A stretch of DNA of 54,812 nt, taken from the NCBI GenBank assembly GCA_021815805.1, contig JAKAZQ010000020.1, forward strand, positions 1 to 54,812, read 5' to 3'. The position numbers and the translations under genes are program-made. The DNA comes from Pseudomonadota bacterium (lineage in GTDB: Bacteria > Pseudomonadota > Gammaproteobacteria > Burkholderiales > Burkholderiaceae_C). Positions 2,400-20,336 of this stretch are shown here, piece after piece. The notes under the pieces were generated by a model that saw nothing but the letters and a program-made list of their open reading frames with translations, was not told the DNA's origin and did no database searches. The stretch's first letter is position 1. Every line of letters begins with the position of its first letter.

Positions 2400-2414
2400 T
2401 CTTCCTGTAGCTCC

Positions 2415-2443: not shown

Positions 2444-2481
2444 ACACTTCCCCGGATATCGTGATGTCAAGGATTCCCCAG

Positions 2482-3696
2482 ATGCGGAACATTCTCCCTG
2501 CGACGCTGCTCGTCGCGCTGGCGGCCGGCGTCCCGGCCGCGCACGCCGCTGCCGTGCGTCTTTGCGCGTTTCCGCACAGTGCCACCGAACAACTCGACCG
2601 TGCCGTGGCGCACGCCGTGTTCCAGCGCGCCGGTCTCGACTACGCCAACGTCGACCTGTCCGGCGTGCTCGGCCGCAACGCCACGGCGAAGCAGATCAGC
2701 AAGCTGCTGGCCACCCGTTGCGACACGTTCGTGGGCGTCCCCGTGGCACAGCACTACAAGCAGCTCAAGCCAGCCTCGGTCACGGTCACGCCGTACCTGC
2801 ATGCCGACTTCGTGAAATTCCATGCGGTCGGCACCCCGACCGCGGCGGGCGGCCGCGACATCGTCGCGGTGGCCTACAACAGCACGGCGCAGCTCATCGC
2901 GGCCGAGGAACGCGACACCTCGTTCGACGTGCTGAACAGCAGCGACGCGGTGATCGACGCCGTGGCGCAAGGAAAGGACGCCTACGGCATCGCCTGGTAC
3001 CCCAGCCTGGTCGACTACCAGCGGCGCCATCCGCAGGTGCGCTTCGCGATGCACCCGACGCGCACCTCGATTTCGCAGTGGGATCTCGGTTTTCTCACCG
3101 GCACGCGCAATGCCGCGCTGGCGCGCCGCATCGGCCTGGCGGTGCGCGCGCTGGAACATGACGGCGCGCTGCCGCGCCTGACGGCGCCCTGGCAGATGCA
3201 CACGCAGCCGGTGCGCCTGGCGCCGTCGGTGGGCGCGCTGGCACGCCCCGCCGCCGACGCCGCCCCGGGCGGCGCCATGCTGGCGCAGGACGTGGTGTTC
3301 CATCCGGACCAGCCGGGCCGCCTGCTGAACACCGCCGACGACGCGCCGGCCGCGCACGTCGCGCATTTCGCGCAGTCGCAGGTCGGCCCCGGTGCGAAGG
3401 ACTATGCCGTGGACTGCGCGCGCTGCCACGGCGCGCACCTGGAGGGTCACTCGGGCCCGACCCTGCGCGGCGGCGGTTTCGCCCCGTCGAGCGGCTCGAC
3501 CATGACCATCGGCGGCATCTACCAGTACATGTCGACGAACATGCCGGCCGACGAGGCGGGCCAGCTCAAGCCGAAGGTGTACGCCGACATCATGGCCTAC
3601 CTGCTGCATGAGAACGGCTACAAGCCGTCGGGCCAGGTGCTGGATCCGGCGCAGGCTGGCAACGATCAGAGTCCCTTCAACTCCTACGTGAAATGA
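2482..3696 (+). CDS. Fusion: quinoprotein-associated periplasmic binding domain + cytochrome c
   Basis: A 404-residue exported protein. A signal peptide (MRNILPATLL to PAAHA) leads to a type-3 solute-binding-like domain of roughly residues 25-235. This domain resembles the MoxJ/XoxJ proteins (quinoprotein-associated 'ABC substrate-binding' family) found beside PQQ dehydrogenases. After a linker of about 60 residues comes a single-haem cytochrome c domain with C312-A-R-C315-H316 and a likely axial methionine in YMSTNMPAD. In methanol-oxidation clusters the two functions are normally separate proteins (XoxJ and XoxG); here they share one chain. AAGGA eight bases before the ATG at 2482 favours this start; GTG 2461 and ATG 2464 are in-frame alternatives. 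The likely role is docking on the upstream dehydrogenase and accepting its electrons. Confidence 0.8.
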   Translation: MRNILPATLLVALAAGVPAAHAAAVRLCAFPHSATEQLDRAVAHAVFQRAGLDYANVDLSGVLGRNATAKQISKLLATRCDTFVGVPVAQHYKQLKPASVTVTPYLHADFVKFHAVGTPTAAGGRDIVAVAYNSTAQLIAAEERDTSFDVLNSSDAVIDAVAQGKDAYGIAWYPSLVDYQRRHPQVRFAMHPTRTSISQWDLGFLTGTRNAALARRIGLAVRALEHDGALPRLTAPWQMHTQPVRLAPSVGALARPAADAAPGGAMLAQDVVFHPDQPGRLLNTADDAPAAHVAHFAQSQVGPGAKDYAVDCARCHGAHLEGHSGPTLRGGGFAPSSGSTMTIGGIYQYMSTNMPADEAGQLKPKVYADIMAYLLHENGYKPSGQVLDPAQAGNDQSPFNSYVK

Positions 3697-4262
3697 GCCG
3701 GCGCGCCTGCGGGATGGGCAGCCTCGCGCTGGCGCTGCTGCTCGCGGCGCCGGCGGCGCAGGCCGCGGCGAGCCCGGCCAGTGCGCAGCAGTGGCTGTGG
3801 CGGCAGCCGCTGGGGCACGAGAACCTCGATCGCCTGCGCCACGACGCCGAGAACGGCAAGGTCGGCGCGCAGATGGACCTGGCGCGCTACCTGCTGCGCC
3901 ACGGCCGCGACGCGGCCGGCGTGAACTGGCTCACCCAGGCCAACGAACAGGGCGACGTGCGCGCGCAGTACCTGCTGGGCATGCTGTACCTGCAGGGTCG
4001 CGCCATCGGCCAGGATTTCGACCAGGCGCGCTATTTCCTCGGCAAGGCCGCCGACCAGGGATACGCCGCCGCGCAGTTCCATCTCGGGCGCCTGCTCATC
4101 AACGGTCCGTTCATCGATCCGTCGCTGGCCAACGAGAGCCAGGCGCACGTCCAGCGCGACCTGCGTCGCGGCCGCGAACTCGTGCGCAAGGCCGCCGCCG
4201 CCGGCTATGCGCCGGCCCGCGCGCTGCTCGCCCGCGATGCGCCGGCTCAGGCCGCGCCGTAG
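3693..4262 (+). CDS. Sel1-like (TPR-type) repeat protein, exported
   Basis: The start ATG overlaps the previous stop (ATGA), so it is translated with the cytochrome fusion. The 189-residue product has a signal peptide (SLALALLLAAPAAQAAA). It continues as consecutive Sel1-like helical pairs of about 36 residues, seen in GAQMDLARYLL, GDVRAQYLLGMLYLQGRA and GYAAAQFHLGRLL. Such solenoids mediate protein contacts, and small TPR/Sel1 proteins are common beside quinoprotein dehydrogenases. A role in assembly or docking of the dehydrogenase-cytochrome pair is inferred from position only. Its 3' end overlaps the convergent DUF3429 gene by 16 bases. Confidence 0.7.
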   Translation: MSRRACGMGSLALALLLAAPAAQAAASPASAQQWLWRQPLGHENLDRLRHDAENGKVGAQMDLARYLLRHGRDAAGVNWLTQANEQGDVRAQYLLGMLYLQGRAIGQDFDQARYFLGKAADQGYAAAQFHLGRLLINGPFIDPSLANESQAHVQRDLRRGRELVRKAAAAGYAPARALLARDAPAQAAP

Positions 4263-4814: not shown

Positions 4815-5510
4815 ATGCTCCGCGAACCCTGCCCGCCTGCCGCACGATCCCGGCGCACTCTGCGCGCGGCGCGCCGCTTCGCCGCGGTCATGCTGCTCGG
4901 CGCGCTGGGTGCGTGCAGTTCGCTGCACGCGCTGACCCGCCAGCAGGATGCGCACCTGGCGCAGGTGCCCCCCGGCGTCTACCGGCTTGATCCGCGGCAC
5001 TGCAGCGTGACCTTCGATGTCGACCACCTCGGCTTCTCGCGTTTCGTGATGCGCTTCGACCATGTCGGTGCGCGCCTCGACTGGCCCGCCACCGGCGCCG
5101 GCTCGGCGCGCCTGCAGGCCTGGGTGGCGAGCGCCAGCATCGACACCAACGACGCCCTGCTCGACCGCGAGTTGCGCGGCCCGGCGATGCTCGACGCACG
5201 CCACCATGCACGCATCACGCTGCGGGCCGACGGGCTGCACGACCTGCGCGGCGACCGCGGGCTGGTGCACGGCGAGTTGCGCCTCGGGCGCACGGTCGAG
5301 CCGATCGTGCTGCACGTGCGCTTCCACGGCTACGGCATCGATCCGATCAACGGCCTGCCGACCCTGGGTTTCTCGGCGCGCGCGAGCTTCTCGCGCGCCC
5401 GCCTCGGCCTGCTCGCCTGGCCGGGCGTGGTCGGCGACAGCGTGCACCTGCGCATCGAAGCCGAATTCGTCGGCTCGCCGCGCCCGGCCGGCGGCACCAC
5501 GTCCCCGTGA
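4815..5510 (+). CDS. YceI-family lipoprotein
   Basis: A 231-residue protein. The N-terminus is Arg-rich, then AAVMLLGALGACSS forms a lipobox with the cysteine near residue 34, so it should be lipid-anchored in the periplasm. The rest matches the YceI lipocalin-like barrel: YRLDPRHCSVTFDVDHLGFSRF at the start, ASIDTNDALLDRELRGPAMLD in the middle, and GFSARASFSRARLGL near the end. YceI proteins bind polyisoprenoids or other lipids and are often induced by base, osmotic or oxidative stress. The ATG at 4815 is the nearest that keeps the full export signal; ATG 4890 would still keep the lipobox. Confidence 0.78.
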   Translation: MLREPCPPAARSRRTLRAARRFAAVMLLGALGACSSLHALTRQQDAHLAQVPPGVYRLDPRHCSVTFDVDHLGFSRFVMRFDHVGARLDWPATGAGSARLQAWVASASIDTNDALLDRELRGPAMLDARHHARITLRADGLHDLRGDRGLVHGELRLGRTVEPIVLHVRFHGYGIDPINGLPTLGFSARASFSRARLGLLAWPGVVGDSVHLRIEAEFVGSPRPAGGTTSP

Positions 5511-5611
5511 AACAGTGGCTGCGCGACGCGCGGCATTTGGCTACAGTGCAGAGCAGCGGCGCGGCCGCCGCATGCCCCCTTCACCAACGCGCGCGAGCGA
5601 CGCCGACAATC

Positions 5612-6544
5612 ATGGGTCTGCTGGATGTTCTTCGGCGCCTCACCGGGCGCACCGCGGCCGCCGCGCAGCCCGCCGCGCAGCCTGCGCAAACCGCGTCGCG
5701 GGAGCCGCAGCGCGACGCCCCCGCGGCCGAGCCGGAACTGTCCGGCAGCGAACTGGCATACCGCTTCTTCGAGTACACCACCGGGCGCGCGTGCCTCGAA
5801 CGCGAGGGCATGTCCGACGTCGAGCAGGAGGTGCTGCAGCGCCTCGACCGCATCCTGGAAGACCCCGGCGATGTCATTCGCTGGATCCCGCGGCCTCCGG
5901 CCATCCTGCCGCGCCTGCTCGCCTGCCTGCGCGACGACGACGCGTCGCTGCGCGAGACCTGCGTCCTGATCCGCGGCGATCCCTATCTCGCCACCGAGGT
6001 GGTGCGACTGGCCAACTCGGCGCTGCACCAGCGCGGCACGCCGGTGACGGAACTCGAGCGCGCTGCCGCGCGCCTCGGCTTCGCCGGGCTGCAGCGCGCG
6101 GTCACCAGCAGCCTGCTGCGCCCGCTGTTCGATACCCTGCGCGATCCGCTGCTCGTGGCCGCGCTGCCACGCCTGTGGGTGCACGGCCAGGCGAAGGGCG
6201 CGTGGTGCCAGACCCTGGCCAGGCAGGCGGACGTCGATGCCTTCGACGCCTACCTGTCGGGACTCACCCACAACGTCGGCTGGATCGGTGCGCTGAAGGC
6301 GCTCGGGCGCGACGGCCCCGGCCCCGGCCCCGCCGCTGGATACAGCCGGCCATTCGTGCTGGAACTGGCGCGCCGCAGCGAGCGCATGTTCGCGCTCGGG
6401 GCCGAGCAATGGGCGATCACGGCCGGACTCAGCCGCCTCGGCGCGGTGCTGCGCCAAAGCTCGCTGCCCGAGGCCTCCGATGCGCTGGCGCAGGTGCTGT
6501 TCGTCGCCGACTCGCGCGCCACGCGGGAGGTCGCGGCCGGCTGA
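5612..6544 (+). CDS. HDOD domain protein
   Basis: About 310 residues. After an Ala/Gln/Pro-rich N-terminal stretch (residues 12-45) the protein matches the HDOD fold: IPRPPAILPRLLACLRDDDASL, LIRGDPYLATEVVRLANSA and AAARLGFAGLQRAVTSSLL. The metal-binding histidine-aspartate pairs of true HD phosphohydrolases are missing, as is normal for HDOD proteins, which act as signalling adaptors for motility, biofilm or cyclic di-GMP traits. It ends 25 bases from the convergent rpfG-like gene. A functional link with the cyclic di-GMP system next door is plausible but only positional. The frame is open further upstream, but homology begins near MGLLDVLRRL. Confidence 0.75.
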   Translation: MGLLDVLRRLTGRTAAAAQPAAQPAQTASREPQRDAPAAEPELSGSELAYRFFEYTTGRACLEREGMSDVEQEVLQRLDRILEDPGDVIRWIPRPPAILPRLLACLRDDDASLRETCVLIRGDPYLATEVVRLANSALHQRGTPVTELERAAARLGFAGLQRAVTSSLLRPLFDTLRDPLLVAALPRLWVHGQAKGAWCQTLARQADVDAFDAYLSGLTHNVGWIGALKALGRDGPGPGPAAGYSRPFVLELARRSERMFALGAEQWAITAGLSRLGAVLRQSSLPEASDALAQVLFVADSRATREVAAG

Positions 6545-6569: not shown

Positions 6570-7640
6570 CTACTGGAAGTTGTTGCGAACCTTCTCGATG
6601 CCTCGCGCATCGGCGAGGAAGGCGTGCACGAACTCCGGATCGAGTTGCTTGCCGGCCTGCGTGCGCAGGTACTCGGCGGCGCGCTCGTCGCTCCACTTCT
6701 CCTTGTACGGGCGCTTCGACGTCAAGGCGTCGAACACGTCCACCACCGCCAGGATGCGCGCCGAAACCGGAATGTCCTCGCCCGCCAGCCCGTCCGGGTA
6801 GCCGCCGCCGTCGAAGCGCTCGTGGTGCGAGCGTGCGATCTCCGCGGCCACCATCAACGGCTCGGAATCCCCGCCGGCCAGCATGGCATGGCCGATCAGC
6901 GTGTGCCGACGCATGATGTCCCACTCGGCGTCGGTCAGTGCGCGCTGCGCCAGCAGGATGCTGTCGGGAATCGCCACCTTGCCGATGTCGTGCAGCGGTG
7001 CCGCCATCTCCAGCATGGTCGCGTAGCCGTCGCCCATGCCGACGCGGCGCGCCAGCATCGACGAGAACAACCCGATACGCCCCAGGTGCGCGCCGGTGTC
7101 CGTGTCGCGCTGCTCCGCCACCTTGGCCAGCCGCGTCAGGGTCTCGAGCTTCTTTTTCTGCAGATCGGCCACCACCTCCTCGACCTGCGTCTGCAGGCTG
7201 CGCGCATGCTGGGTCATGGCCAGCTGGTAGCGCCGCATCTTCAGCAGGTTGCGGCAGCGCGCCGCGCACTCGCGGTAGTCCAGCGGACGACTGAGGTAGT
7301 CGTTGGCGCCCGCATCCAGCGCCTCGTAGCGCACCTGCAGGTCGTCGATCGCGGTGACGCAGATGATCGGGGATTCCTTCAGATGCTCGACGTCGCGCAG
7401 GGTGCGGATCATGGTCACGCCGTTCATCTGCGGCATGCGGTAATCGGTCAGCACCAGGTCGAGGTCGTTGCCGCGCGCGTACTCGATGGCGTGCAGCGGG
7501 TCGTGGAAAACCTCGATGCGGGCTTCGGGACAGAAGCCGCGGGCGATCTCGACCAGCAGGCGGCAGTTGGTCGCCTGATCGTCGACGATCATGATGGCCG
7601 GCTGCCGGGCCCAGCCATCCATGGCAATGTTCTCGTTCAT
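6570..7640 (-). CDS. rpfG: RpfG-like response regulator, cyclic di-GMP phosphodiesterase (HD-GYP)
   Basis: 356 residues in two parts. A receiver domain (about 15-135) has the phospho-acceptor D66 in LVLTDYRMPQMNG and a conserved lysine-region RPLDYRE. An intact HD-GYP domain (about 180-350) follows, with DTGAHLGRIG, H217-D218 in LHDIGK, HHERFDGGGYP and G280-Y281-P282. This is the architecture of Xanthomonas RpfG, which is phosphorylated by RpfC in response to DSF and then hydrolyses cyclic di-GMP. The full HD-GYP motif set predicts an active enzyme. It is divergent from the ACP gene and shares a 163-bp control region with it. The ATG at 7640 precedes the receiver domain directly; longer frames add unmatched sequence. 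Confidence 0.85.
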   Translation of the reverse strand: MNENIAMDGWARQPAIMIVDDQATNCRLLVEIARGFCPEARIEVFHDPLHAIEYARGNDLDLVLTDYRMPQMNGVTMIRTLRDVEHLKESPIICVTAIDDLQVRYEALDAGANDYLSRPLDYRECAARCRNLLKMRRYQLAMTQHARSLQTQVEEVVADLQKKKLETLTRLAKVAEQRDTDTGAHLGRIGLFSSMLARRVGMGDGYATMLEMAAPLHDIGKVAIPDSILLAQRALTDAEWDIMRRHTLIGHAMLAGGDSEPLMVAAEIARSHHERFDGGGYPDGLAGEDIPVSARILAVVDVFDALTSKRPYKEKWSDERAAEYLRTQAGKQLDPEFVHAFLADARGIEKVRNNFQ

Positions 7641-7742
7641 CACAGGGACTCGATACGCATGCTGCACGCGGATTGTAAACGCTTGTCGTCGGGCGGGCGC
7701 GACGCACACGAGCGCTTGCGGAGTTTATCGCAGAGCGCGCGG

Positions 7743-7771
7743 TTGCCGCGTCATGTCGTCTCGGCTAGGCT
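7743..7771 (+). promoter_or_regulatory. Possible sigma-70 promoter for the ACP-ketosynthase operon
   Basis: TTGCCG (7743-7748) and TAGGCT (7766-7771) are separated by 17 bases, about 32 bases before the ACP start. The match is partial, and the region is shared with the divergent rpfG-like gene. Confidence 0.4.
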
Positions 7772-7803
7772 AGTGGATGAAACTCCGTCCTGAGGAATGC
7801 TCA

Positions 7804-8067
7804 ATGCCCGAATCCTGGAATGAACCGAAAATCATCGACGCCATCAAGAATATCGTTCAAGAGACTTTCGATATCGACCTGCACGAGGCCCCGCCGTCGA
7901 TGCAGATTCGCGACAGCGGCCTCGATTCCATGGCGATCCTGGATGTCGTGATGAGCCTCGAGGACATGCTGGGACAAAAAATCAAGAACATCGATCTGCC
8001 GAAGAACCCCTCCCTGCAGGACGTTGCCGCGATGGTCATGCGCAATCTGCAGGGCGCCAGCGCATGA
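7804..8067 (+). CDS. Acyl carrier protein in the DSF locus
   Basis: An 87-residue acidic protein with the ACP helix pattern and the phosphopantetheine attachment serine S42 in SGLDSMAILDVV. It differs from housekeeping AcpP in loop sequence, for example IVQETFDIDLHEAPPSMQI, so it is a specialised carrier. GAGGA precedes the ATG at 7804 by eight bases. The stop overlaps the ketosynthase start (ATGA), which implies translational coupling. RpfF enzymes act on 3-hydroxyacyl-ACP, so a dedicated ACP beside a ketosynthase and an RpfF homolog suggests that it carries the fatty chain during signal synthesis. That role is an inference. Confidence 0.82.
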   Translation: MPESWNEPKIIDAIKNIVQETFDIDLHEAPPSMQIRDSGLDSMAILDVVMSLEDMLGQKIKNIDLPKNPSLQDVAAMVMRNLQGASA

Positions 8068-9290
8068 ACGAAGTCGTCATCACCGGCGTCGGCGTGATCT
8101 CGCCCATCGGCGATTCACCCGACGCCGTGCGCGACTCGCTGCTGGAGTCGCGCTCGGGGATCGAGGCCTTCGAGTCCGCCGAGATCTCCCGCGCGTTTCC
8201 GGTCGCCAGGGTTCCCGGCAGCTTCGAGAGTTCGTTCACCCGCCTCGAACGTCCGTTTCTTGATCGTACTACCCAAATGGCACTGCTTGCCGCACGCCAG
8301 GCGGCGGAATCGAGCGGGGTCGTGAACTTTTCCTCGTTCGGCGAGCGCGCCGGAATCTTCCACGGCACGGTGCGTGGCGGAGGAACCACGGAGTGGGAGG
8401 GGCTGCGCCACTTCTACGCCGGGCGCAAGACGGCCAAGCCATACGTCATCATGGGCTGCATGGCCAACGCGGCGGCCTCGTTCATTTCCATCAAGCACCA
8501 GATCCTGGGCGTCACCGCCTGCCACACGTCGGCATGCGCCTCGTCGGGCTCGGCGATCGCCGACGCCTGTCGCTACCTGCGCGCGGGCGACCTCGACATC
8601 GCGTTGGCCGGCGGCGCCGAGGCGCCGCTGGCCAGCCAGTTCCTCAGCGCCTGGGACGGACTGCGCGCACTCGCCGAGGTCGACGCCGACGACGCCTCGC
8701 GCAGCTGCAAGCCGTTTTCCAGCGCCCGCAGCGGGCTCGTGCTCGGCGAGGGCAGCGTGTTCTTCGTGCTGGAGACGCGCAGCCACGCGCAGGCCCGCGG
8801 CGCGCGCGTGCTGGGCGTGATCGAAGGCTGGGGAGTCGCCTCCGACGCCCATCACATCGGCGCCCCGCATGCCCGCGGGCAGGTCGCCGCGATGCGCGCG
8901 GCGCTGCGCGCCGCGGGCGTGGCGCCGACGCAACTCGACTACATCAACGCCCACGCCACCGCCACGCGCGGCGGCGATCCGGTGGAGGTGCAGGCGATGC
9001 GCGAAGTGCTCGGCGAGGCCGCCGCGCAGGTTCCGGTGAGTTCGACCAAGGCCCTGCACGGCCACATGCTGGGAGCGGCCAGCGCCATGGAACTGCTGGT
9101 GTGCCTGCTGGCCGCGCGAGACGGCTTCATCCCGCCGACCGCGCACCTGCGCGAGCCGGACCCCGATTGCGCCGGCCTGCGGCACGTCGGCGAGTTGCTG
9201 CAAGGCCAGCGCGTACACCGCGCGCTGTCGCTGTCGGCCGGCTTCGGCGGCGTCAACGCCGCCCTCGTGTTGCGCGCCGAACACGCATGA
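8064..9290 (+). CDS. Beta-ketoacyl synthase (FabF-like), first copy in the DSF locus
   Basis: A 408-residue thiolase-fold ketosynthase opening with VVITGVGVISPIG. The triad is complete: C158 in HTSACASSG, H297 in NAHATATRGG and H334 in STKALHGHMLGAASAME, with the lysine of SSTKAL also present. The histidine motif reads NAHATATR instead of the usual NAHGTSTP, so this is not a housekeeping FabF. It is coupled to the ACP gene by an ATGA overlap and is closely similar to the second ketosynthase at 12621-13853. The expected reaction is decarboxylative condensation of malonyl-ACP with an acyl chain. In this setting it may set chain length or branching of the precursor used by the RpfF-like enzyme downstream. 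Confidence 0.85.
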   Translation: MNEVVITGVGVISPIGDSPDAVRDSLLESRSGIEAFESAEISRAFPVARVPGSFESSFTRLERPFLDRTTQMALLAARQAAESSGVVNFSSFGERAGIFHGTVRGGGTTEWEGLRHFYAGRKTAKPYVIMGCMANAAASFISIKHQILGVTACHTSACASSGSAIADACRYLRAGDLDIALAGGAEAPLASQFLSAWDGLRALAEVDADDASRSCKPFSSARSGLVLGEGSVFFVLETRSHAQARGARVLGVIEGWGVASDAHHIGAPHARGQVAAMRAALRAAGVAPTQLDYINAHATATRGGDPVEVQAMREVLGEAAAQVPVSSTKALHGHMLGAASAMELLVCLLAARDGFIPPTAHLREPDPDCAGLRHVGELLQGQRVHRALSLSAGFGGVNAALVLRAEHA

Positions 9291-9445
9291 ACCCGCGCGC
9301 GCGGCGCCGCGCCGGCGCGACACGGCGCGGCGGCCCGCGGCTCACGCGCGGCAGCGCCCGGAGGCGGACGCCGGGCGGGTGACGCCAGCGTCAAATTCCC
9401 GTCACCCGACGTGCCGGCGCGCGTGGCCCGCCTCGGGACAGCGCC

Positions 9446-9461
9446 TGGCATGTTCCTTGCT
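9446..9461 (+). promoter_or_regulatory. Candidate sigma-54 promoter upstream of the first rpfF-like gene
   Basis: TGGCATGTTCCTTGCT fits the -24/-12 consensus TGGCAY-N5-TTGCW with the required GG-N10-GC spacing. It lies 55 bases before the ATG at 9517 in the 226-bp gap after the ketosynthase gene. Chance matches occur in GC-rich DNA, and no activator site was recognised. Confidence 0.45.
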
Positions 9462-9516
9462 GCGACAGGACGAGTGCGCCATTCCCGGCGCCCATCGCCA
9501 ACCAGCAGGGCCTGCC

Positions 9517-10404
9517 ATGATGCCTCCCGAGATTTCCACGCGAGTCTTCTCGCCGATGTTTCCGGCGATCGAGCCTGCGCTGACCACGCAGTTCGATGCA
9601 AACGCGGGCGCATTATGGATCTCCCAGCACCCGAAAAACCGCCGCGTCCAGAACATGTCGCGCGAGACCTTGGCTGCCCTGCAGGATATTCTGGAGCAGG
9701 TCGGGCGGCACGATCCGCATTGGCACGATACCGGATCGGAGCGTCCCGTGCATTACCTTGTGCTGCGCTCGGAACATCCCCGGCATTTCAATCTGGGGGT
9801 CGATCTCGAATATCTGCTGGGCTGCCTGGAAAAGCGCGAGGCGGCGGCTCTGCAACGCTACGCGACGCAGTTGATGGGCACCATCTACCAATGGGCGACG
9901 CAGTGGAACGGCGAGGCCACGACCATTGCGCTGGTACAGGGCCGCGCGCTCGGCGCGGGCTTCGAGATGGCACTGTCCGCCGATCACGTCGTGGCCGAGG
10001 AACACGCGGAGTTCGGGTTCCCGGAGATCGTCTACGGCTTGTTCCCCGGCAACGGCGCGATGAGCCTGCTGGGACGTCGCGTCGGGCTGGCGACGGCGCA
10101 GCGCCTGATGCAAAGCGGGCGCGTGTACGGCGCCGCCGAGCTCATGGAGCTCGGCGTGATCGATCAGGTCTGCCCGAGCGGACGCGGCGAGGCGGTGGTG
10201 CGCGAGTTCATCCACGAGCACGCGCAACGCCGGGGCGCGCGCCTGGCGCTGCAACGCGCGCGCATGCGCATGCAACCCCTCGATCGCGCCGAGTTCGACG
10301 AGGTCGTCGCCGACTGGCTCGAGACCGCGTCACGGCTCGAGGCCCGGCAGTTGCACATGCTGCAGAGCATGCTGCGCATGCAGCGCAGCGACAGCACCCA
10401 CTGA
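9517..10404 (+). CDS. rpfF: RpfF-like DSF synthase, first copy
   Basis: A 295-residue crotonase-fold protein of the RpfF type. RpfF turns 3-hydroxyacyl-ACP into a cis-2-unsaturated fatty acid signal by dehydration and thioester cleavage. The two catalytic glutamates of Xanthomonas RpfF (E141 and E161) have counterparts at the same 20-residue spacing: E150 in GAGFEMALSADHV and E170 in FGFPEIVYGLFPG. HYLVLRSEHPRHFNLGVDL and the Arg-rich C-terminal helices also fit the family. The start at MMPPEIST (9517) is where homology begins; the frame is open upstream. The gene has its own sigma-54-like promoter candidate and ends nine bases from the convergent rpfC-like gene. Confidence 0.85.
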   Translation: MMPPEISTRVFSPMFPAIEPALTTQFDANAGALWISQHPKNRRVQNMSRETLAALQDILEQVGRHDPHWHDTGSERPVHYLVLRSEHPRHFNLGVDLEYLLGCLEKREAAALQRYATQLMGTIYQWATQWNGEATTIALVQGRALGAGFEMALSADHVVAEEHAEFGFPEIVYGLFPGNGAMSLLGRRVGLATAQRLMQSGRVYGAAELMELGVIDQVCPSGRGEAVVREFIHEHAQRRGARLALQRARMRMQPLDRAEFDEVVADWLETASRLEARQLHMLQSMLRMQRSDSTH

Positions 10405-10417
10405 CGCCACGCGTCAG
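10401..10417. terminator. Hairpin joining convergent rpfF-like and rpfC-like stop codons
   Basis: CTGACGC-CAC-GCGTCAG is a perfect 7-bp stem that contains both stop codons (TGA on plus, TGA on minus). It could serve as a short bidirectional terminator, but it lacks T-runs. Confidence 0.35.
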
Positions 10418-12555
10418 AATCCGGACGCGGCGCGCTCCTCCTTGAGCACGATCTCGTCGATCGACGCGAAGGTCGCCGCGGCCGTTTCGCGCAGATCGAC
10501 CGCGATGCGCTCGCGCCGCAACTCCAGGGTTTCGTCGTCCGCGCGCATCAGCGCCTGCGCCAGCGTGGCCAGGCGCACGGCGCCGATCTCGTTGGCCACG
10601 CCCTTCAGGGCATGCGCCGCCGAGCGCACCTCGGCCATCGCGCGCTGCTCGATGGCCGCGCAGATGGTGTCGACCGATTCGGTCATGTCGCTGCGAGCGC
10701 GTCGCAGCATGTCGGTCAGGAAGTCCGCGCTGCGCCCGATCGAGCGCAGCCGGCCGGTGACCGCCTGGTCGATGTAGATCACCGACACCGGACGCAGGTG
10801 GGGCGGGTTCGCCGCGCTGGCGGCGACGCCGGAGCGCTGCTGGGGCGACGGCGGCCTGACGCCGGCGCCACCCTGCGCCGGATAGTCGGCGCCTGCCAGC
10901 GCCAGTGCGCGACGCAGTTCCTTGACACTGATCGGCTTGGTCAGCACGCCCAGCGCGCCCGTGTCGAGCAGCCTCTGCTCGGTGACCAGGGTCGCGTCGG
11001 CGGTGAGAAACCAGGCCGGCGCCGGCGAACTGCGCCCGAACCGGTAGGCCTGCAGGACCTGCGCGCCGTCGAGGTCGCCGAGGTTGTAGTCGAGGATCAG
11101 CAGGTCGAACGCGTCGTCGGCACTCAGCAGCGATAGCGCCACCTCGCCGCTCGACGCGGTCACCACGGTGTGACCGTCGCGCGCGATCAGTTCCTTGAGC
11201 AGGAACAGATTGGTCGAATTGTCGTCGGCCAGCAGCACGCGCAGCGAGCGCGCGGGCCGCTGCTCGGCGGCCGGGATCTCGTACACGGAGTCGCCGAACT
11301 CGCTCTCGGGGTCGGTGATCTGCGCCTTTTCCATGCGCAGGTCGAACCAGAAGTGGCTGCCGCTTCCCAGCGTGCTGGTCACCCGCAACGAGCCGCCCAT
11401 CAGTTCCACGGCCTGCTTGCTGATCGCCAGCCCGAGGCCGGAGCCCTCCTCCGAATTCACCCGGCCATGCACTTGCACGAAGGGGTTGAAGATTTTCTGC
11501 AGGTTGTCTTCCGAGATCCCCGTGCCGGTGTCCTGCACGCTGAAGCGCACGGTGTAGTCGCGCTCGCCCTCGCTGAGCAGCACGGCGTGCACGTTGACAC
11601 TGCCGGCCTCGGTGAACTTGACGGCATTGCCGGCGAAATTGATCAGCGTGCGCGACAACCAGCGACTGTCGACCAGCACCGGCTGGGTCAGCCGCGGATC
11701 CACCGTGCACTGCAGCATGAGTCCCTTGGAGCGCGCGCGGTTCTCCAGCGACGCGCGCACCACCTGGATCTGGCTCTCGATGGTCTTGGCCTCCAGGTTC
11801 AGCGCCATCTTGCCCAGGCTGAAGCGGCTCTGGTCGATCAGATCGTTGATGTCGGCCAGCAGATGCGCGCCGAGGTTGCGGATGGTCCGCGCCAGTTGCC
11901 TGGCACGCATCATGCTTTCTTCCGACTCGATGAGTTCCGCCGCATTCGCGATGCCACCCAGTGGAGTACGCAGTTCATGACTGACACGCGCCATCAATTC
12001 GCTCTTGGCCTGGCTTTCGAGCTCGGCGAAGTGAATGGCCTCGTGCAATTGACGCGTCAATTCTCCGGCGTAGAACGGCACGATCAGCACCGCCAGAATC
12101 GCCGAGCCCCACGGGATCAGGTGATGCGCCCAGTAGGGCGAAAGCACCGGGACCAGGCAGACGAAGCACACGGACGCCGCCTGCGAAATCAGCAGGATTT
12201 CGCGGCGCCCGGTGCGCAGGCCGTAGCCGATGGTGGCGAAGTTGTACAGCGGCGTAAACAGGATGCCGTATTTTCCGGTGACCATCTCCCACGCGAACAC
12301 CATGAAGGCGTCCATCACCGCGGTGGCGATCAGCGACGCCGTCGTCGGACGCGAGCGGGCATTGCGAAGGAATACGTAGGCGGCCGCCGCGTACAGCAGG
12401 TGCGCGGTGCCGACGATGACTTCCCAGCGCGTCACCACGCCGAATCCCATGCCGAGGGCGAAACCCAGCGCGATGCCGCCGACCACCATCAGCAGGCGCA
12501 GTTTCGCCTGCCGGACCAACGCGGCCGTGCTGTCGACTCCGAAGGTGTTTTGCAT
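10414..12555 (-). CDS. rpfC: RpfC-like hybrid sensor histidine kinase
   Basis: 713 residues in the RpfC order. About five hydrophobic segments span residues 15-165 (LRLLMVVGGIALGFALGMGF onward). A histidine kinase domain carries H193 in SHELRTPLGG. The ATPase domain has N-box NAVKFTEAG and G-boxes DTGTGIS and GSGLGLAIS. A receiver domain has D489 in LLILDYNLGDLDG, and a C-terminal Hpt domain has H648 in AAHALKGVANEIGA. Xanthomonas RpfC has the same order and nearly the same length; it senses DSF and also binds RpfF to restrain synthesis. The ATG at 12555 places the first membrane helix about 18 residues in. The gene faces the first rpfF-like gene and is divergent from the second ketosynthase. 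Confidence 0.87.
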   Translation of the reverse strand: MQNTFGVDSTAALVRQAKLRLLMVVGGIALGFALGMGFGVVTRWEVIVGTAHLLYAAAAYVFLRNARSRPTTASLIATAVMDAFMVFAWEMVTGKYGILFTPLYNFATIGYGLRTGRREILLISQAASVCFVCLVPVLSPYWAHHLIPWGSAILAVLIVPFYAGELTRQLHEAIHFAELESQAKSELMARVSHELRTPLGGIANAAELIESEESMMRARQLARTIRNLGAHLLADINDLIDQSRFSLGKMALNLEAKTIESQIQVVRASLENRARSKGLMLQCTVDPRLTQPVLVDSRWLSRTLINFAGNAVKFTEAGSVNVHAVLLSEGERDYTVRFSVQDTGTGISEDNLQKIFNPFVQVHGRVNSEEGSGLGLAISKQAVELMGGSLRVTSTLGSGSHFWFDLRMEKAQITDPESEFGDSVYEIPAAEQRPARSLRVLLADDNSTNLFLLKELIARDGHTVVTASSGEVALSLLSADDAFDLLILDYNLGDLDGAQVLQAYRFGRSSPAPAWFLTADATLVTEQRLLDTGALGVLTKPISVKELRRALALAGADYPAQGGAGVRPPSPQQRSGVAASAANPPHLRPVSVIYIDQAVTGRLRSIGRSADFLTDMLRRARSDMTESVDTICAAIEQRAMAEVRSAAHALKGVANEIGAVRLATLAQALMRADDETLELRRERIAVDLRETAAATFASIDEIVLKEERAASGF

Positions 12556-12566
12556 GGCGATGGAAG

Positions 12567-12594
12567 TTGTCGGGCGGGAGCAGTCCGATATTTT
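12567..12594 (+). promoter_or_regulatory. Possible promoter for the second ketosynthase-rpfF unit
   Basis: TTGTCG (12567-12572) and TATTTT (12589-12594) are separated by 16 bases in the 65-bp gap between the divergent rpfC-like and ketosynthase genes, about 26 bases before the ATG at 12621. Confidence 0.4.
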
Positions 12595-12620
12595 CGAGAA
12601 ACCAGGGCCAGGAAGCTGCA

Positions 12621-13853
12621 ATGAAAGAGGTTGCGATCACCGGAATCGGCGTCCATTCTCCCATAGGGCTGGACGAGCAAGCCGTACTCGAAAGCCTGCT
12701 GATGCTGCGCAGCGGCATTCGCCGCATCGACATCCCCGCCACCGGCAAGGCCTACGCCGTGGGTCTGATCGAGAACGATTTCAGCGAACGTTTCACCAAG
12801 ATGGAACGGCCGTTGCTTGATCGTATCGCGCAACTCGCGGTACTCGCCGCGCAGCAGGCCTCTGAAAACGCCGGAATTGCCAACTATTCCACGTTCGCGG
12901 AACGTGCCGGGGTATTTTTCGGCACCGCGCGTGGCGGCGTTACCACAGAATGGGCCGCCTCCCAGGAGTTCATGGACCACCCGACCCGTACGGCGCGGCC
13001 ATATTACCTGATGGGTTCCATGCCCAATTCGGCGGCGTCGCAGATTTCCATTCGCCAGCAGATCCTCGGCCCGGCCGTCACGCACACCTCGGCCTGTGCG
13101 TCGTCGGGCGTGGCGATCGCCGATGCCTGCCGCCACATTCTTTCCGGCGAGATCGACGTGGCGCTGGCCGGCGGAGCCGAGTCGACCGTGCAGCCGGGCG
13201 TGGCGCCGATTTTCCTGCGGCTGTGGGACGCATTGCGCGCCCTCGCCGAGGTCGCCGACGATCCGGCGACCAGTTGCCGCCCGTTCAGCAGCGACCGCAC
13301 CGGTCTGGCGCTCGCCGAGGGCGCGGCGTTTTTCGTGCTGGAGTCGGTCGAGCATGCGCAACGCCGCGGCGCGACCATCCTGGGCTACCTCTGCGGCAGC
13401 GCGGTGGCCTCGGACGCCTACCACATGGGTGCGCCGCATGCCCGCGGCCAGGCGGCGGCGATGCGCGGTGCGCTGCGCGCCGCCGGCATCGACATCGCGC
13501 AGGTCGACTACGTGAACGCCCACGCCACCGCCACGCGCGAAGGCGACGGCGTGGAGATCGCGGCGATGCGCGAGGTGTTCGGTGCCGACGCCGAGCGCAT
13601 CCCGGTGAGTTCGACCAAGGCGCTGCACGGCCACATGCTGGGCGCCGCCAGCGCCATGGAAACCCTGGTCTGCCTGCTCGCCGCGCGCCACGCCTTCGTG
13701 CCGGCGACGGCGCACCTGGGCGAGGTGTCGGAAGACTGCCGCGGCGTGCGGCACGTGCGCGAAGTGCGCCGCGAGCGCCCCATCCGCTATGCCATGAGCC
13801 TGTCCGCGGGGTTCGGCGGCACCAATTGCGCACTCATCGTGCGCCCGCATTGA
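12621..13853 (+). CDS. Beta-ketoacyl synthase (FabF-like), second copy in the DSF locus
   Basis: A 410-residue paralog of the ketosynthase at 8064-9290. The opening (VAITGIGVHSPIG), the ERPLLDRIAQLAVLAAQQA block and the three active-site motifs all align. C159 lies in HTSACASSG, H301 in NAHATATREG and H338 in STKALHGHMLGAASAME, so it should be active. It shares the unusual NAHATATR motif with its paralog. AGGA lies about eight bases before the ATG. No ACP gene precedes this copy, so it would have to use the ACP encoded at 7804 or the housekeeping one. It is followed after 65 bases by the second rpfF-like gene, repeating the ketosynthase-rpfF order. Confidence 0.85.
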   Translation: MKEVAITGIGVHSPIGLDEQAVLESLLMLRSGIRRIDIPATGKAYAVGLIENDFSERFTKMERPLLDRIAQLAVLAAQQASENAGIANYSTFAERAGVFFGTARGGVTTEWAASQEFMDHPTRTARPYYLMGSMPNSAASQISIRQQILGPAVTHTSACASSGVAIADACRHILSGEIDVALAGGAESTVQPGVAPIFLRLWDALRALAEVADDPATSCRPFSSDRTGLALAEGAAFFVLESVEHAQRRGATILGYLCGSAVASDAYHMGAPHARGQAAAMRGALRAAGIDIAQVDYVNAHATATREGDGVEIAAMREVFGADAERIPVSSTKALHGHMLGAASAMETLVCLLAARHAFVPATAHLGEVSEDCRGVRHVREVRRERPIRYAMSLSAGFGGTNCALIVRPH

Positions 13854-13918
13854 CCCCGCGCGGCCCCAGATTCCGCATTCCGAGTTCCAAGTCCCGAGGC
13901 GCACGACGCTTTCCCGCC

Positions 13919-14845
13919 ATGACTTCCCTGCACTCCGACTCCCCGCTGTTGCGCAACCCGCAGCGCCCGCGCGCGCACCGACCCGCTGCGCATCCGGCGT
14001 CACGCCCCGGCGCCGGGGTCGAGATCCGCCACGACGCGACCATCGATACGGCATGGGTGACCATGCAGCCGCGCCCCGGGCAGGCGCTGAACTTCTCGCC
14101 GGCCCTGCTCGACGCGTTCGACGCGGCGTTCGCGCACTGGGAAGCCAATGGCTGCAAGTGGGAGGACGACGACGGCAGCCTGCTGCCCGTCCACTACGCC
14201 GTGCTGCGCTCGGCGCACCCGCAATACTTCAGCATCGGCGGCGACCTGGCGCTGTTCAACGACTGCATCACGCGCGGCGACTTCGACGCGCTGCGCGCGT
14301 ATTCGCGGCGCTGCATGGATCTGACCTACCGCTGGGCCTGCCATGTCGCGCACCACGCCACCACCATCTCGCTGGTACAGGGTCGTGCGCTGGGCGGCGG
14401 CTTCGAGTCGGCCCTGTCTTCCGACTACGTGATCGCCGAGGAGCAGTCCGAGTTCGGGCTGCCGGAGATCCTGTTCGGATTGTTCCCTTGCTCGGGGGGC
14501 ATGCCGCTGCTGGCACGGCGCATCGGCCTGGCCCGGGCGCAGCGGATGATGACCGACGGGCGCCTCTACAAGGCCGCCGAACTGCTCGAGATGGGCGTGA
14601 TCGACGAAGTCTGCGCGCAGGGCCACGGCGAGCGCGCGGTGCGCCGCTTCATCGCCGAGCACTCCAGGGCGCGCGGCGCCCGCCATGCGCTGCAGCTGGC
14701 CCGTCAGCGCATGCAGCCGCTCGACCTGCGCGAGATGGCCGCCGTGGTCGACGACTGGGTCGACGTGGCGCGCGGCCTGAGCACGGCCAACCTGCGCGTG
14801 CTCGACACCCTCACGCGCATGCAGAGCAGCGAGTTCGGGCAGTAG
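13919..14845 (+). CDS. RpfF-like DSF synthase, second copy
   Basis: A 308-residue RpfF-like crotonase with an extra Pro/Arg/His-rich N-terminal segment (about 30 residues) before EIRHDATIDTAWVTM. Both catalytic glutamates are present at 20-residue spacing: E163 in GGGFESALSSDYV and E183 in FGLPEILFGLFPC. It parallels the first copy throughout, but positions near the active site differ (FPCSGGMPLL against FPGNGAMSLL), so product chain or branching may differ. The start at 13919 is the ATG closest to the preceding ketosynthase stop; a start further in is possible. It ends 39 bases before the convergent binding-protein gene. Confidence 0.83.
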   Translation: MTSLHSDSPLLRNPQRPRAHRPAAHPASRPGAGVEIRHDATIDTAWVTMQPRPGQALNFSPALLDAFDAAFAHWEANGCKWEDDDGSLLPVHYAVLRSAHPQYFSIGGDLALFNDCITRGDFDALRAYSRRCMDLTYRWACHVAHHATTISLVQGRALGGGFESALSSDYVIAEEQSEFGLPEILFGLFPCSGGMPLLARRIGLARAQRMMTDGRLYKAAELLEMGVIDEVCAQGHGERAVRRFIAEHSRARGARHALQLARQRMQPLDLREMAAVVDDWVDVARGLSTANLRVLDTLTRMQSSEFGQ

Positions 14846-14884: not shown

Positions 14885-16027
14885 TCACGGCACCAGTTGC
14901 CACGCGCCGTGCTCGATGCGCAGCATCGCCACGGCGTTCGTGGACGGCCCGTTGTGGTTGGTCGGCGAGAAGTCGTAGATGCCGTCGGGCGCCGGCAGAC
15001 CGTGCAGGCCCTCGATGGCGTCGCGCAGCGCGCTGCGCAGCGCCGCGGTGTCGCCCGGGCGGGCCGAGCGCAGCGCGATCGGCAGCGCATGCTCGAGCAG
15101 CACGCCGCTGTCCCAGGCGTTGGCGCTGAACTGGGATACCGTATTGCCGTAGGCCTTCTGGTAGGCGCTGGACATCCGCATGGCGGCTGCCTTGATCGGC
15201 GACGACGCCGGCAACTGCGCGGCGACCAGCGCCGGCGATGCCGGCAGCAGCGTGCCATCGCAGTCACTGCCGCAGACCCGCAGGAAGTCCGGATTCGCCA
15301 CGCCGTGGGTCTGGTACAGCTGGCCCTGGAAGCCGACCTGCTTGAGCGCCCGCTCGGGCAGCGCGGCCGGCGTGCCGGAGGCGACGATCAGCACGGCCTG
15401 CGGCTTCGCCCCGACGATGTGCAGGGCCTGGCCGGTCACCGAGGTCGCGGTTCGCGCGAAGGCCTCGCGATCCACGATGCGGATCCCGTTGCGCGCGGCG
15501 TCGGCCGAGAAGGCCTTCCACCAGCCCTCGCCGTAGGCATCGTTGAAGCCGATGAACGCCACCCGCTTGTAGCCGTGCGCCAGCATGTTGCCGACCACCG
15601 CGTGGGCCATCATGCCGTTGCTCTGCGGGGTGCTGAACATCCAGCGGGTCTTCGCCGTCACGGGCTGCGCGATGCTGGGCACGATCGCGATGTCCGGAAC
15701 CTTGTAGTGCGCCGCGACATCGGTCACGGCCAGCGCATTCGGCGTGATGCTGGGGCCGAGGATGACGTCCACGTGATCCTTGGCGATCAACTCGCGCGCA
15801 TCCTTCACGGCGGCCGTCGGATCGGTGGAGTCGTCCAGGATGGTGTAATGGATGGCCTGTCCCGCGATGGTCTTCGGGAACAGCTCGATGGTCTTGCGCT
15901 CCGGGATGCCGAGCGACGCGGCCGGGCCCGTCATCGACAGAATCACGCCGACGCGGACGTCGGCCATGGCGGCGGGGGCGGCGCCCAGCAGGGCGGCCGC
16001 GAGCACGGCGGTTTTCCAGGCTTTCAT
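14885..16027 (-). CDS. Periplasmic ligand-binding protein, branched-chain amino acid/aromatic acid ABC type
   Basis: A 380-residue type-1 periplasmic binding protein. The signal peptide is KTAVLAAALLGAAPAAMA, and the mature protein starts DVRVGVILSMTGPAASLG as in the LivK/CouP/HbaE group. AAGGAGA lies before the ATG. It is the last gene of the phenylpropanoid operon, 32 bases after the acyl-CoA dehydrogenase. Members of this family bind branched-chain amino acids, or in aromatic-degrading bacteria bind p-coumarate, ferulate or benzoates. The operon context favours an aromatic acid ligand. No permease or ATPase genes lie beside it, so it must work with components encoded elsewhere or act as a sensor partner. 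Confidence 0.78.
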   Translation of the reverse strand: MKAWKTAVLAAALLGAAPAAMADVRVGVILSMTGPAASLGIPERKTIELFPKTIAGQAIHYTILDDSTDPTAAVKDARELIAKDHVDVILGPSITPNALAVTDVAAHYKVPDIAIVPSIAQPVTAKTRWMFSTPQSNGMMAHAVVGNMLAHGYKRVAFIGFNDAYGEGWWKAFSADAARNGIRIVDREAFARTATSVTGQALHIVGAKPQAVLIVASGTPAALPERALKQVGFQGQLYQTHGVANPDFLRVCGSDCDGTLLPASPALVAAQLPASSPIKAAAMRMSSAYQKAYGNTVSQFSANAWDSGVLLEHALPIALRSARPGDTAALRSALRDAIEGLHGLPAPDGIYDFSPTNHNGPSTNAVAMLRIEHGAWQLVP

Positions 16028-16059
16028 GAGCTTGTCTCCTTGGGTGGTTGTGCGGCGGT

Positions 16060-17832
16060 TCACTGCGCCGCCGGCAGTTCGGGCAGAAGCGCAGCTCCGG
16101 CCGTGATGCGTTGCCAGTGCAAGCTGGCGCGCGGCAGCAGCCAGTCCCGCGCGTAGCCCATGCGTTCGAGCTTGGCCTGGCGCCAGCGTGCATCGCCGTC
16201 GTGCAGACCCAGCGCGGCGCGCGCGCTGGAGGCGAAGGCCCAGGCGCAGAGCAGCCACCACAGCGCCTCCATGACATCCTGCGCCAGCGCGCTGGTGGCG
16301 GCCGGCTCGTGCTCCAGCGCGAGCAGCGCATCCAGCGCCCTGGCCGCGGCGTCGCACTGGCCGCGCAGCGCCTCGGCGAAGGGCCGCGCCTGCTGCGGCC
16401 CGTCGCAGGCGCGCGCCTCGTCCAGGCACTCCTGGAGCAGCGCGCGCAGCGCGGCGCCGCGGTCGCCGAGCAGCTTGCGCTGCAGCAGGTCGATGGCCTG
16501 GATCTCGTTGGTGCCTTCGTAGATCATCGCGATGCGGGCATCGCGCAGGCTTTGCTCGATGCCGTATTCGCGCACGTAGCCATAACCGCCGAACACCTGC
16601 AGCGCGGCGCTGGCGCCGTCGAAGCCCAAGCGCGTGAGCTGCGCCTTCAGCAGCGGCGTGAGCAGTGCCGCGCGCGCCTGCGCCGCCTGCCGCACCGCGG
16701 CATCGCGGTGCTGTTCGGCGAGGTCGAGCGCGAGCGCCGCGCGCGCCGCGATCACGCGCCCGGCCTCGACCTGCGCCTGCAGCCCGAGCAGCACATGGCG
16801 CATCGCCGCGTGGCGCGCGATCGGGTCGGCCGTCGCGCCCCCCGCCGCGGCGCGCGCGCCCGCCACGCGCGACTGCCGGCGCTCCAGCGCGTAGCGCAGC
16901 GCGTTCTGGGTCGCCATCTCGGCATGCCCGAGGCCCTGCAGCGCGACGTGCAGGCGCGCCGAGTTCATCATCACGAACATCGCGGCGAGCCCCCTGCCCG
17001 GCTCGCCCACCAGCCAGCCGACGGCATCGTCGTAGCGCATGGCGCAGGTGGCGCTCGCCTGCAGCCCCATCTTGTGCTCCAGGCCCTCGCAGACCATGGC
17101 GTTGCGCGAGCCGTCGGGCAGGAACTTGGGCACCAGCGCCAGCGACAGGCCGCGCGAGCCGCGAGCCGCGTCGGGCAGGCGGCACAACACCAGGTGCACG
17201 ATGTTCTCGCTCAGATCGTGTTCGCCGCCGGAAATGAAGATCTTGCTGCCGCGCACCCGCAGGCTGCCGTCGGGCTGCGGCTGCGCGCGCGTGCGCAGCA
17301 GCCCCAGGTCGCTGCCTGCCTGCGGCTCCGTCAGCGCCATCGCGGCCAGCCACTGCCCACTCACCAAGGCGGGCAGATAGCGCGCCCGGCAGGCATCGTC
17401 GGCATGCGCTGCGAGGGTCTGCACCGCGCCGTGCAGCAGGTCGGGATACATGTTCCAGGCATGGTTGCAGGCGTCGAACATCTCGCGCACCAGCCCGTCG
17501 AGCAGCAGCGGCAGGCCCTGCCCGCCCCATCGCGGCGGGCCCGCCAGGGCCGGCCAGGCCGCCGCGACGAAGGCCTCGTAGGCGTCGCGAAAGCCGTCGG
17601 GCGTGCGCACGCCGCCATCCGGCTGCAGGCGGCAGCCTTGCCGGTCGCCCGTCGCGTTCAGCGGCAGCAGGCGCTCGCGGGCGAAGCGCGCACCCTGCTC
17701 CAGCACGGCGCAGGCGGTGTCGAGATCGAGTTCGGCGTGCGCCGGGCACTGCGCCCACGCCGCCGGGGCGTCCAGCACATGCTCCAGCACGAAGCGCATG
17801 TCGCGCAGCGGGGCCTCGTAGTTCCAGCTCAT
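16060..17832 (-). CDS. Acyl-CoA dehydrogenase (long type with C-terminal extension)
   Basis: 590 residues. The acyl-CoA dehydrogenase core has FAD-binding AMALTEPQAGSDLG, a central barrel with GSKIFISGGEHDL, and the catalytic base E439 in MIYEGTNEIQAIDL. A C-terminal helical domain of about 120 residues marks the large FadE-like subgroup. It would oxidise an acyl-CoA to the trans-2-enoyl-CoA with FAD. The start overlaps the thioesterase stop (ATGA). In this operon it could allow use of side-chain-saturated substrates such as dihydroferulate or phloretate, feeding them into the same hydratase. That is inferred from neighbours; a general fatty acid role is the alternative. Confidence 0.82.
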   Translation of the reverse strand: MSWNYEAPLRDMRFVLEHVLDAPAAWAQCPAHAELDLDTACAVLEQGARFARERLLPLNATGDRQGCRLQPDGGVRTPDGFRDAYEAFVAAAWPALAGPPRWGGQGLPLLLDGLVREMFDACNHAWNMYPDLLHGAVQTLAAHADDACRARYLPALVSGQWLAAMALTEPQAGSDLGLLRTRAQPQPDGSLRVRGSKIFISGGEHDLSENIVHLVLCRLPDAARGSRGLSLALVPKFLPDGSRNAMVCEGLEHKMGLQASATCAMRYDDAVGWLVGEPGRGLAAMFVMMNSARLHVALQGLGHAEMATQNALRYALERRQSRVAGARAAAGGATADPIARHAAMRHVLLGLQAQVEAGRVIAARAALALDLAEQHRDAAVRQAAQARAALLTPLLKAQLTRLGFDGASAALQVFGGYGYVREYGIEQSLRDARIAMIYEGTNEIQAIDLLQRKLLGDRGAALRALLQECLDEARACDGPQQARPFAEALRGQCDAAARALDALLALEHEPAATSALAQDVMEALWWLLCAWAFASSARAALGLHDGDARWRQAKLERMGYARDWLLPRASLHWQRITAGAALLPELPAAQ

Positions 17833-18278
17833 GCGCATTGCACCCGCAGGTCCTCGGGAATGGCGATGGCGCGCAGGCGCGCCGGATCCTGCGCATCGCG
17901 CACGACGAAGGCGCGCACTTCGGTGCCCTCGCACAGCGTCACGCCGTTGCGCCGGACGACATGGCGGTGGCGGAAGGTCTTCGCCGCCCAGTGCTCGATC
18001 ACGGTCTCGATCTCCAGGGTCTCGCCATAGGTGGCCGATTGCACGAAGCGCGTGTGGATCTCCAGCAGCGGCGTGCCGATGATGCCGCGGCTGCGCTCGA
18101 GTTCGCGCCAGGGCGGCAGGCCGCAGGCACGAAAATAGGCCAGCGACGCCTGGTCCATCCAGCGCAGGAAATTGGGAAAGAACACGATGCCGGCGGGGTC
18201 GCAGTCGCCGAACTGCACCTCCACGCGGTACAGGCGCCGGGTCGGCTGCGCCGCCGTGACGGAAAGGGATTCGCTCAT
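17829..18278 (-). CDS. 4-hydroxybenzoyl-CoA thioesterase family (hot-dog fold) protein
   Basis: A 149-residue single hot-dog domain. The segment QFGDCDPAGIVFFPNFLRW and the later GLPPWRE, GTPLLE and LRAIAIPEDL match the Pseudomonas CBS3 4-hydroxybenzoyl-CoA thioesterase closely. D27 corresponds to that enzyme's catalytic aspartate D17. It would hydrolyse an aromatic acyl-CoA to the free acid and CoA. Both ends overlap neighbouring genes by ATGA, so it is coupled to the thiolase and the dehydrogenase. In a beta-oxidative hydroxycinnamate route the thiolase would yield 4-hydroxybenzoyl-CoA or vanilloyl-CoA, exactly the type of ester this enzyme cleaves. Confidence 0.82.
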   Translation of the reverse strand: MSESLSVTAAQPTRRLYRVEVQFGDCDPAGIVFFPNFLRWMDQASLAYFRACGLPPWRELERSRGIIGTPLLEIHTRFVQSATYGETLEIETVIEHWAAKTFRHRHVVRRNGVTLCEGTEVRAFVVRDAQDPARLRAIAIPEDLRVQCA

Positions 18279-20328: not shown

Positions 20329-20336
20329 GGTGATGG

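Follow-up and report, generated by a model that had tools for sequence, protein, structure and literature searches.

The window analysed here is a 54,812-nucleotide contig (JAKAZQ010000020.1, assembly GCA_021815805.1) from a bacterium of the Burkholderiaceae_C, apparently a species of Thiomonas. At positions 6570-14845, it carries a diffusible signal factor (DSF)-type quorum-sensing locus that includes a dedicated acyl carrier protein (ACP) and a pair of FabF-like ketosynthases (KSs). The locus consists of seven neighbouring open reading frames (ORFs), all intact, in the order RpfG(-), ACP(+), KS1(+), RpfF1(+), RpfC(-), KS2(+) and RpfF2(+). An earlier reading made from the letters of the window alone (hereafter, the sequence-only reading) had named these seven genes and numbered the catalytic residues of the KSs and the crotonases; the ORFs and Pfam matches confirm the former, and the residues are found at the numbers given.

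The first gene encodes an RpfG-type response regulator (6570..7640, minus strand) in which the REC and HD-GYP domains are confirmed by Pfam (REC and HD_5) and by the motifs DYRMP, HDIGK and HHERFDGGGYP. An intergenic region with the presumed promoters (7641..7803) separates rpfG from the divergent ACP-KS-rpfF1 genes. The dedicated ACP (7804..8067, plus strand; PF00550, 1e-9) contains a GLDS motif with Ser42, and D41-S42 is invariant in 10/10 aligned sequences. The start codon of KS1 (8064..9290, plus strand) overlaps the ACP stop codon (8064 versus 8067); KS1 matches the N- and C-terminal ketoacyl-synthase domains of Pfam and retains C158, H297, H334 and K329. RpfF1 (9517..10404, plus strand; Pfam ECH_1), with intact E150/E170 and altered glycines (NLGVDL, LGAGFE), is convergent with the gene for the hybrid kinase RpfC (10414..12555, minus strand), with about 10 bases between them. 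The second pair consists of KS2 (12621..13853, plus strand), which has the same two Pfam domains and intact C159, H301, H338 and K333, and RpfF2 (13919..14845, plus strand; ECH_1), with intact E163/E183 and oxyanion-loop glycines.

Crotonases and sensor kinase

Among solved structures, the top four phmmer matches of RpfF1 and RpfF2 alike are RpfF (3m6m, 7zq7), DfsA (5fus) and Cronobacter RpfF (6dgn), and when the AlphaFold model of RpfF1 (pLDDT 85) is compared, these four structures together with 3m6n fill ranks 1-12. The catalytic Glu pair is invariant in 34/34 KS-linked and 61/61 other RpfF-like sequences. Both crotonases pass the cut-off of the PRK08788 crotonase family (NF006452, 177 bits), with 242.6 bits for RpfF1 and 264.7 bits for RpfF2. 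The cut-off of the NCBIfam RpfF model (NF053515, 550 bits) is missed, at 145.2 and 173.5 bits, respectively; it is likewise missed by all six tested RpfF-like sequences without a KS (191.5-244.8 bits), three of which (L069-L071) come from loci with adjoining rpfC and rpfG. In a tree of 100 crotonases, which holds no experimentally proven RpfF, one branch (SH-aLRT 92) splits the 34 KS-linked sequences from the 61 other RpfF-like ones, and five other enoyl-CoA hydratases of the window genome are remote (branch 2.68); this tree and the KS tree discussed below are quick trees with long-branch warnings. The sequence-only reading named a phylogeny with both crotonases outside the RpfF clade as a refutation; in this tree, they fall outside the group of 61, yet are far closer to it than to the five hydratases.

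The RpfC kinase contains five transmembrane-like segments predicted from hydropathy, followed by HisKA, HATPase, REC and Hpt domains. Its input domain, aligned with those of five relatives, matches the input domains of three conventional RpfCs with a profile probability of 99.5%. With this homology, and with DSF synthases as the best solved matches of the crotonases, the earlier proposal of a DSF-type locus that, unlike the classical rpf loci, has its own ACP and KS is supported.

Ketosynthases and the conserved module

The KSs of rpf loci, 35 in all, form one clade (support 100, branch 1.09), outside of which lie 35 other KSs, including FabF and two further KSs of the window genome. Both KS1 (341.2 bits) and KS2 (353 bits) miss the FabF cut-off (TIGR03150, 493.75 bits). 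The model of KS1 has a fold nearest to that of ordinary FabF (TM-score of about 0.94 to FabF structures), and the catalytic Cys158, His297, His334 and Lys329 are invariant in 35/35 clade members. The gating loop reads L-S-A-G-F-G-G in all 35 members, whereas most other KSs have N-S-F-G-F-G-G; Leu390 and Ala392, where the others have mostly Asn and Phe, are part of the signature of the clade, as is Ala298 at a position where other KSs mostly have Gly. At the position of FabF Ile108, a correspondence taken from the alignment and from the title of 4ls6 (I108F mutant), Arg is found in 27/35 clade KSs, namely, in 26/26 Thiomonas rows and 1/9 others, the remaining 8/9 non-Thiomonas KSs having Cys, Ala, Ser or Gly; the 35 other KSs include none with Arg (0/35) and 31 with Ile, Leu or Met. 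The Arg suggests an unusual acyl pocket.

It could be argued from this Arg, together with the altered gating loop of the entire clade and the lack of a ketoreductase among the Pfam matches of the seven proteins, that these KSs do not elongate at all but rather act as malonyl-ACP decarboxylases or starter loaders, placing a short or polar primer on the ACP, so that the product would be a short or modified enoic acid and not a C12-type DSF. The C-H-H-K set is complete, however, the fold is nearest to ordinary FabF, and the small residues at the Ile108 position in 8/9 non-Thiomonas KSs imply that no single pocket type is required; we consider a non-elongating KS quite unlikely. That housekeeping fatty-acid genes are located here by accident was rejected, given that the KSs form their own clade and that the housekeeping fabF, with a neighbouring ACP, sits on another contig of the window genome. 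Contig C36 of this genome (G000; 42-58 kb, L254) encodes two non-housekeeping KSs and two small ACP matches, perhaps, another lipid or pigment cluster.

Within Thiomonas, 21 of 28 genomes contain both the KS and RpfF, neither was detected in the remaining 7, and the two are thus concordant in 28/28 (Fisher 8e-7, uncorrected for ancestry); two of the 7 negative genomes (G019, G025) are 81-82% complete. Of the 22 Thiomonas stretches inspected, 17 have RpfG together with ACP-KS. A KS scan of genome contigs yielded at least 79 loci, with KS identity of at least 51% in at least 30 and of at most 41% in at least 49. Among the matches listed, RpfF is present in 28 of the 30 high-identity loci, the exceptions being L137, which is cut inside the KS, and L090, whose genome encodes RpfF on another contig (L088); none of the 49 low-identity loci, some of them short, has a listed RpfF or ACP match above the printed thresholds. 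At least 9 of the 30 high-identity loci are from outside Thiomonas, the carriers among the matches listed being two uncultured Betaproteobacteria, Sulfuritalea, Lysobacterales 63-13, a Lysobacteraceae metagenome-assembled genome (MAG), Dokdonella and three MAGs named Proteobacteria only. Each of these nine genomes has a single RpfF-like gene at E<=1e-30, and the listed matches include ACP-KS-RpfF in 9/9 records, RpfC in 8/9 and RpfG in 7/9 (the contig of L100 ends early; L096 has no RpfG match over the threshold in 19 kb). The genome search for a conserved ACP-KS-rpfF order, advised in the sequence-only reading, thus recovered it both in Thiomonas and beyond.

RpfF-like genes at E<=1e-40 are present in 67/369 genomes of the class and 72/399 genomes of the order, the window genome being counted in each. 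Among 58 such loci from 58 of the 137 other genomes (7 clipped by contig ends), none (0/58) has a match to the dedicated ACP or KS within flanks of about 1.5 kb, and 34/58 have an RpfC-like kinase match. The KS searches of the order and class scored the best approximately 4 candidates per genome. In the order, 63/399 genomes have a match at E<=1e-115, the window genome at about 700 bits and the other 62 at 387-448 bits; nineteen of these 62 were placed in the KS tree and all fall outside the rpf clade. Apart from the window genome, the class sample has just one match at E<=1e-125, with a score of 427. Xanthomonadales were left out of the survey, and the distribution of the module is a lower bound. 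In G700, a KS (L288:453-1688) lies immediately ahead of rpfG, in an rpf cluster that is conventional in all other respects; it lies outside the KS clade and was treated not as an independent case but as probably incidental, and the 8 kb stretch around a relative with 72% identity (L293) contains no rpf gene.

Chance adjacency of the KS and RpfF is rejected by their co-occurrence in the 28 Thiomonas genomes and by the non-Thiomonas loci; judged from gene order and conservation, ACP-KS-RpfF is a conserved module. Beta-branching cassettes resemble ACP, KS and crotonase in outline, and this resemblance, along with the missed RpfF cut-off, could be taken to mean that the module tailors another lipid or polyketide and that the two-component genes are unrelated neighbours. 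Such cassettes are, however, defined by an HMG-CoA synthase gene and a KS without its Cys, whereas no HMG-CoA-synthase-type Pfam match occurs among the seven proteins and the catalytic Cys is kept in 35/35 KSs. Considering also that the crotonases are nearest to RpfF, and that RpfC and RpfG travel with the module outside Thiomonas, a function unrelated to DSF appears very improbable.

The genes flanking the locus are of several kinds. Directly upstream lies an HDOD-domain gene (5507-6544) and, farther upstream (681-4262), genes for a PQQ-dependent dehydrogenase, a cytochrome c protein and a Sel1-repeat protein that are partly common to L046, L049 and L050. Downstream, on the minus strand (14885-22361), is an acyl-CoA set consisting of a periplasmic binding protein, an acyl-CoA dehydrogenase, a thioesterase, a thiolase, a crotonase and an AMP-binding CoA ligase. 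The CoA-ligase, thiolase and crotonase genes were tried as an rpfB substitute and not counted in the module: in a test that covered the thiolase, thioesterase, crotonase and binding protein, matches were confined to 2 of the 22 Thiomonas stretches (L046, L047), although several of the 22 are short (L065, 3.7 kb). The earlier statement that rpfB is missing holds for 6570-14845, with no genome search made, and is to be read with the CoA ligase about 5 kb away in mind.

Origin of the double locus

In 13/21 Thiomonas genomes, the locus has a one-unit layout, RpfC-RpfG / ACP-KS-RpfF (the RpfC of G015 is cut by the contig end). Two RpfFs are present in 4/28 genomes, and these differ in arrangement. 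In G022, KS1-RpfF1 with RpfC, RpfG and ACP are on one contig, and KS2-RpfF2 with another RpfC are on a second one; in G024, the first unit is as in G022, and a partial KS2 and RpfF2 lie on a contig of 3.7 kb, too short for RpfC to be seen. In G012, the two units are 5 kb apart, with one RpfC and, in the window, they are adjacent. This series, from one unit through separate contigs and a 5 kb distance to adjacency, looks like a quorum-sensing locus in the course of duplicating and merging. The doubling in the window looks like a merger of two loci: the units of G022 sit on different contigs, and each is accompanied by an RpfC of its own. We infer from these sequence comparisons in which direction the merger went.

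Other Thiomonas genomes carry parts of the two units. G020 and G021 (L252/L059 and L251/L057) have RpfG-ACP-KS1 separate from RpfC-KS2-RpfF2, that is, two rpf-clade KSs with one RpfF; G006 has RpfC-KS2-RpfF only, and in G003, RpfC sits between the KS and RpfF. The KS duplication seems to be older than these species because the KS2 sequences of six genomes (the window, G012, G022, G006, G020 and G021) group together (support 99).

The RpfC of the window clusters with its counterparts in G012, G022 and G003 (100/99), and the RpfC and RpfF2 trees are concordant for these four genomes; by this phylogeny, the RpfC kept in the window belongs to the RpfF2 lineage. No second RpfC of this locus type was found in the window genome, the next match scoring 145 bits. 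The unit-1 RpfC is absent in G012 and in the window, and in G022 and G024 (L067:4677-6782 and L066:7915-10020), it lacks the phospho-acceptor His (VGRELRTP) while keeping the Hpt motif, a loss seen in 2/30 RpfCs examined. RpfF1 is altered as well. The glycine of LGGGFE, which we take to be the position of Gly138 in Xanthomonas campestris pv. campestris, is replaced by Ala or Thr in RpfF1 of all 4 two-RpfF genomes and is Gly in 30/34 KS-linked and 59/61 other sequences; the second Gly of LGGD is gone in RpfF1 of 3 of the 4 and kept in 31/34 and 61/61, respectively.

These observations bear on the suggestion, made in the sequence-only reading, that the locus makes two signals read by one RpfC/RpfG pair. 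The single sensor stands, with one RpfC per two RpfFs in the genome and one RpfG in the locus, a count that applies to the locus only, no genome-wide search for RpfG having been made. As to two signals, KS1-RpfF1 and KS2-RpfF2 could be two active lines that make different cis-2-enoic acids with a shared ACP and RpfC/RpfG: the catalytic residues are intact in both KSs and both RpfFs, the two KSs are 60% and the two RpfFs 45-48% identical, and both RpfFs are retained in four genomes. The replaced glycines of RpfF1, the decay or loss of the unit-1 RpfC and the existence of two KSs with a single RpfF in G020 and G021 make two active lines rather unlikely. Because the kept RpfC is of the RpfF2 lineage and RpfF1 is altered at two near-invariant glycines, one main signal accompanied by a diverging second enzyme appears likelier than two signals with one sensor; a second product from RpfF1 is possible but not indicated.

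Proposed pathway and known systems

We favour, with some reservation, a DSF-type quorum-sensing locus that contains its own committed step, two such loci having merged in the window species. All chemical and signalling steps that follow are our interpretation of the observed gene content, conservation, residues and phylogeny. In the committed step, the dedicated KS would draw an acyl group out of the fatty-acid pool and, on the dedicated ACP, condense it with malonyl, and housekeeping FabG, presumably borrowed because the locus has no reductase of its own, would reduce the product to 3-hydroxyacyl-ACP. The RpfF-like crotonase would then dehydrate this intermediate to the cis-2-enoyl form and hydrolyse it to the free signal, to be sensed by the RpfC kinase; phosphate would pass to RpfG, whose HD-GYP domain would degrade cyclic di-GMP. 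In the window, KS2-RpfF2-RpfC would be the main unit, with unit 1 providing the shared ACP and RpfG and retaining KS1, and RpfF1, left without its own RpfC, probably diverging.

Several observations weigh against this scheme. In addition to the missed RpfF cut-off and the lack of a reductase, the acyl pocket may refuse a normal medium chain because both KS1 and KS2 have Arg at the FabF Ile108 position. Furthermore, RpfF and RpfC of G006, G020 and G021 group apart from RpfF2 and RpfC of the window, unlike their KS2, and the KS of G003 stands apart in the KS tree. The gene trees disagree in part, and therefore parts have been exchanged, so that the merger is a simplified account.

If the scheme is right, it suggests a private assembly line in which the signal is made with its own chain-building enzyme and carrier and not skimmed from ordinary fat synthesis, and the conserved ACP-KS-RpfF module makes both this separation from lipid synthesis and the determination of chain length directly testable. 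A more tentative extension is that the dedicated KS-ACP pair, rather than the general fatty-acid pool, sets the carbon skeleton of the signal; the KS pocket, which has Arg at the Ile108 position in Thiomonas and a small residue in most other members, would specify which signal is made, the signals might be unlike those of the known DSF family, and duplication of the KS-RpfF-RpfC unit could be a way in which a new private signal evolves.

Thiomonas is common in acid mine waters. In the portion of the open PMC literature covered, we found no description of a KS or an ACP in an rpf locus, or of DSF in Thiomonas. The Xanthomonas rpfBFCG locus (PMC4504480) shares with the window an RpfF-type crotonase, a phosphorelay RpfC with multiple transmembrane segments, an HD-GYP RpfG and convergent RpfF and RpfC. 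In Xanthomonas and Burkholderia, the substrate of RpfF is 3-hydroxyacyl-ACP supplied by fatty acid synthesis, which the enzyme dehydrates and hydrolyses (PMC4542539, PMC4504480 and PMC5941067), the Xanthomonas substrate being drawn from housekeeping synthesis (PMC4542539). In contrast, the window locus includes a dedicated ACP and KS and no rpfB, RpfC-RpfG and ACP-KS-RpfF point away from each other in 13/21 Thiomonas genomes, and the crotonases are on a separate branch. The rpfFCG genes of Leptospirillum likewise provide RpfF, RpfC and RpfG in an acidophile, where PMC8357829 ties DSF signalling to bioleaching; the terms ketoacyl, acyl carrier and 3-oxoacyl are absent from its main text. The crotonase fold is shared with RpfF/DfsA of Burkholderia and Cronobacter, of which 5fus and 6dgn are the nearest structures, but the sensor there is a different one, RpfR, with rpfF and rpfR convergent (PMC4504480). 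Finally, FabF (KAS II) shares the fold and the C-H-H-K set with the window KSs; unlike FabF, these KSs score below the fabF cut-off, form their own clade with Arg or a small residue at the Ile108 position, and occur in a genome that encodes its housekeeping FabF elsewhere.

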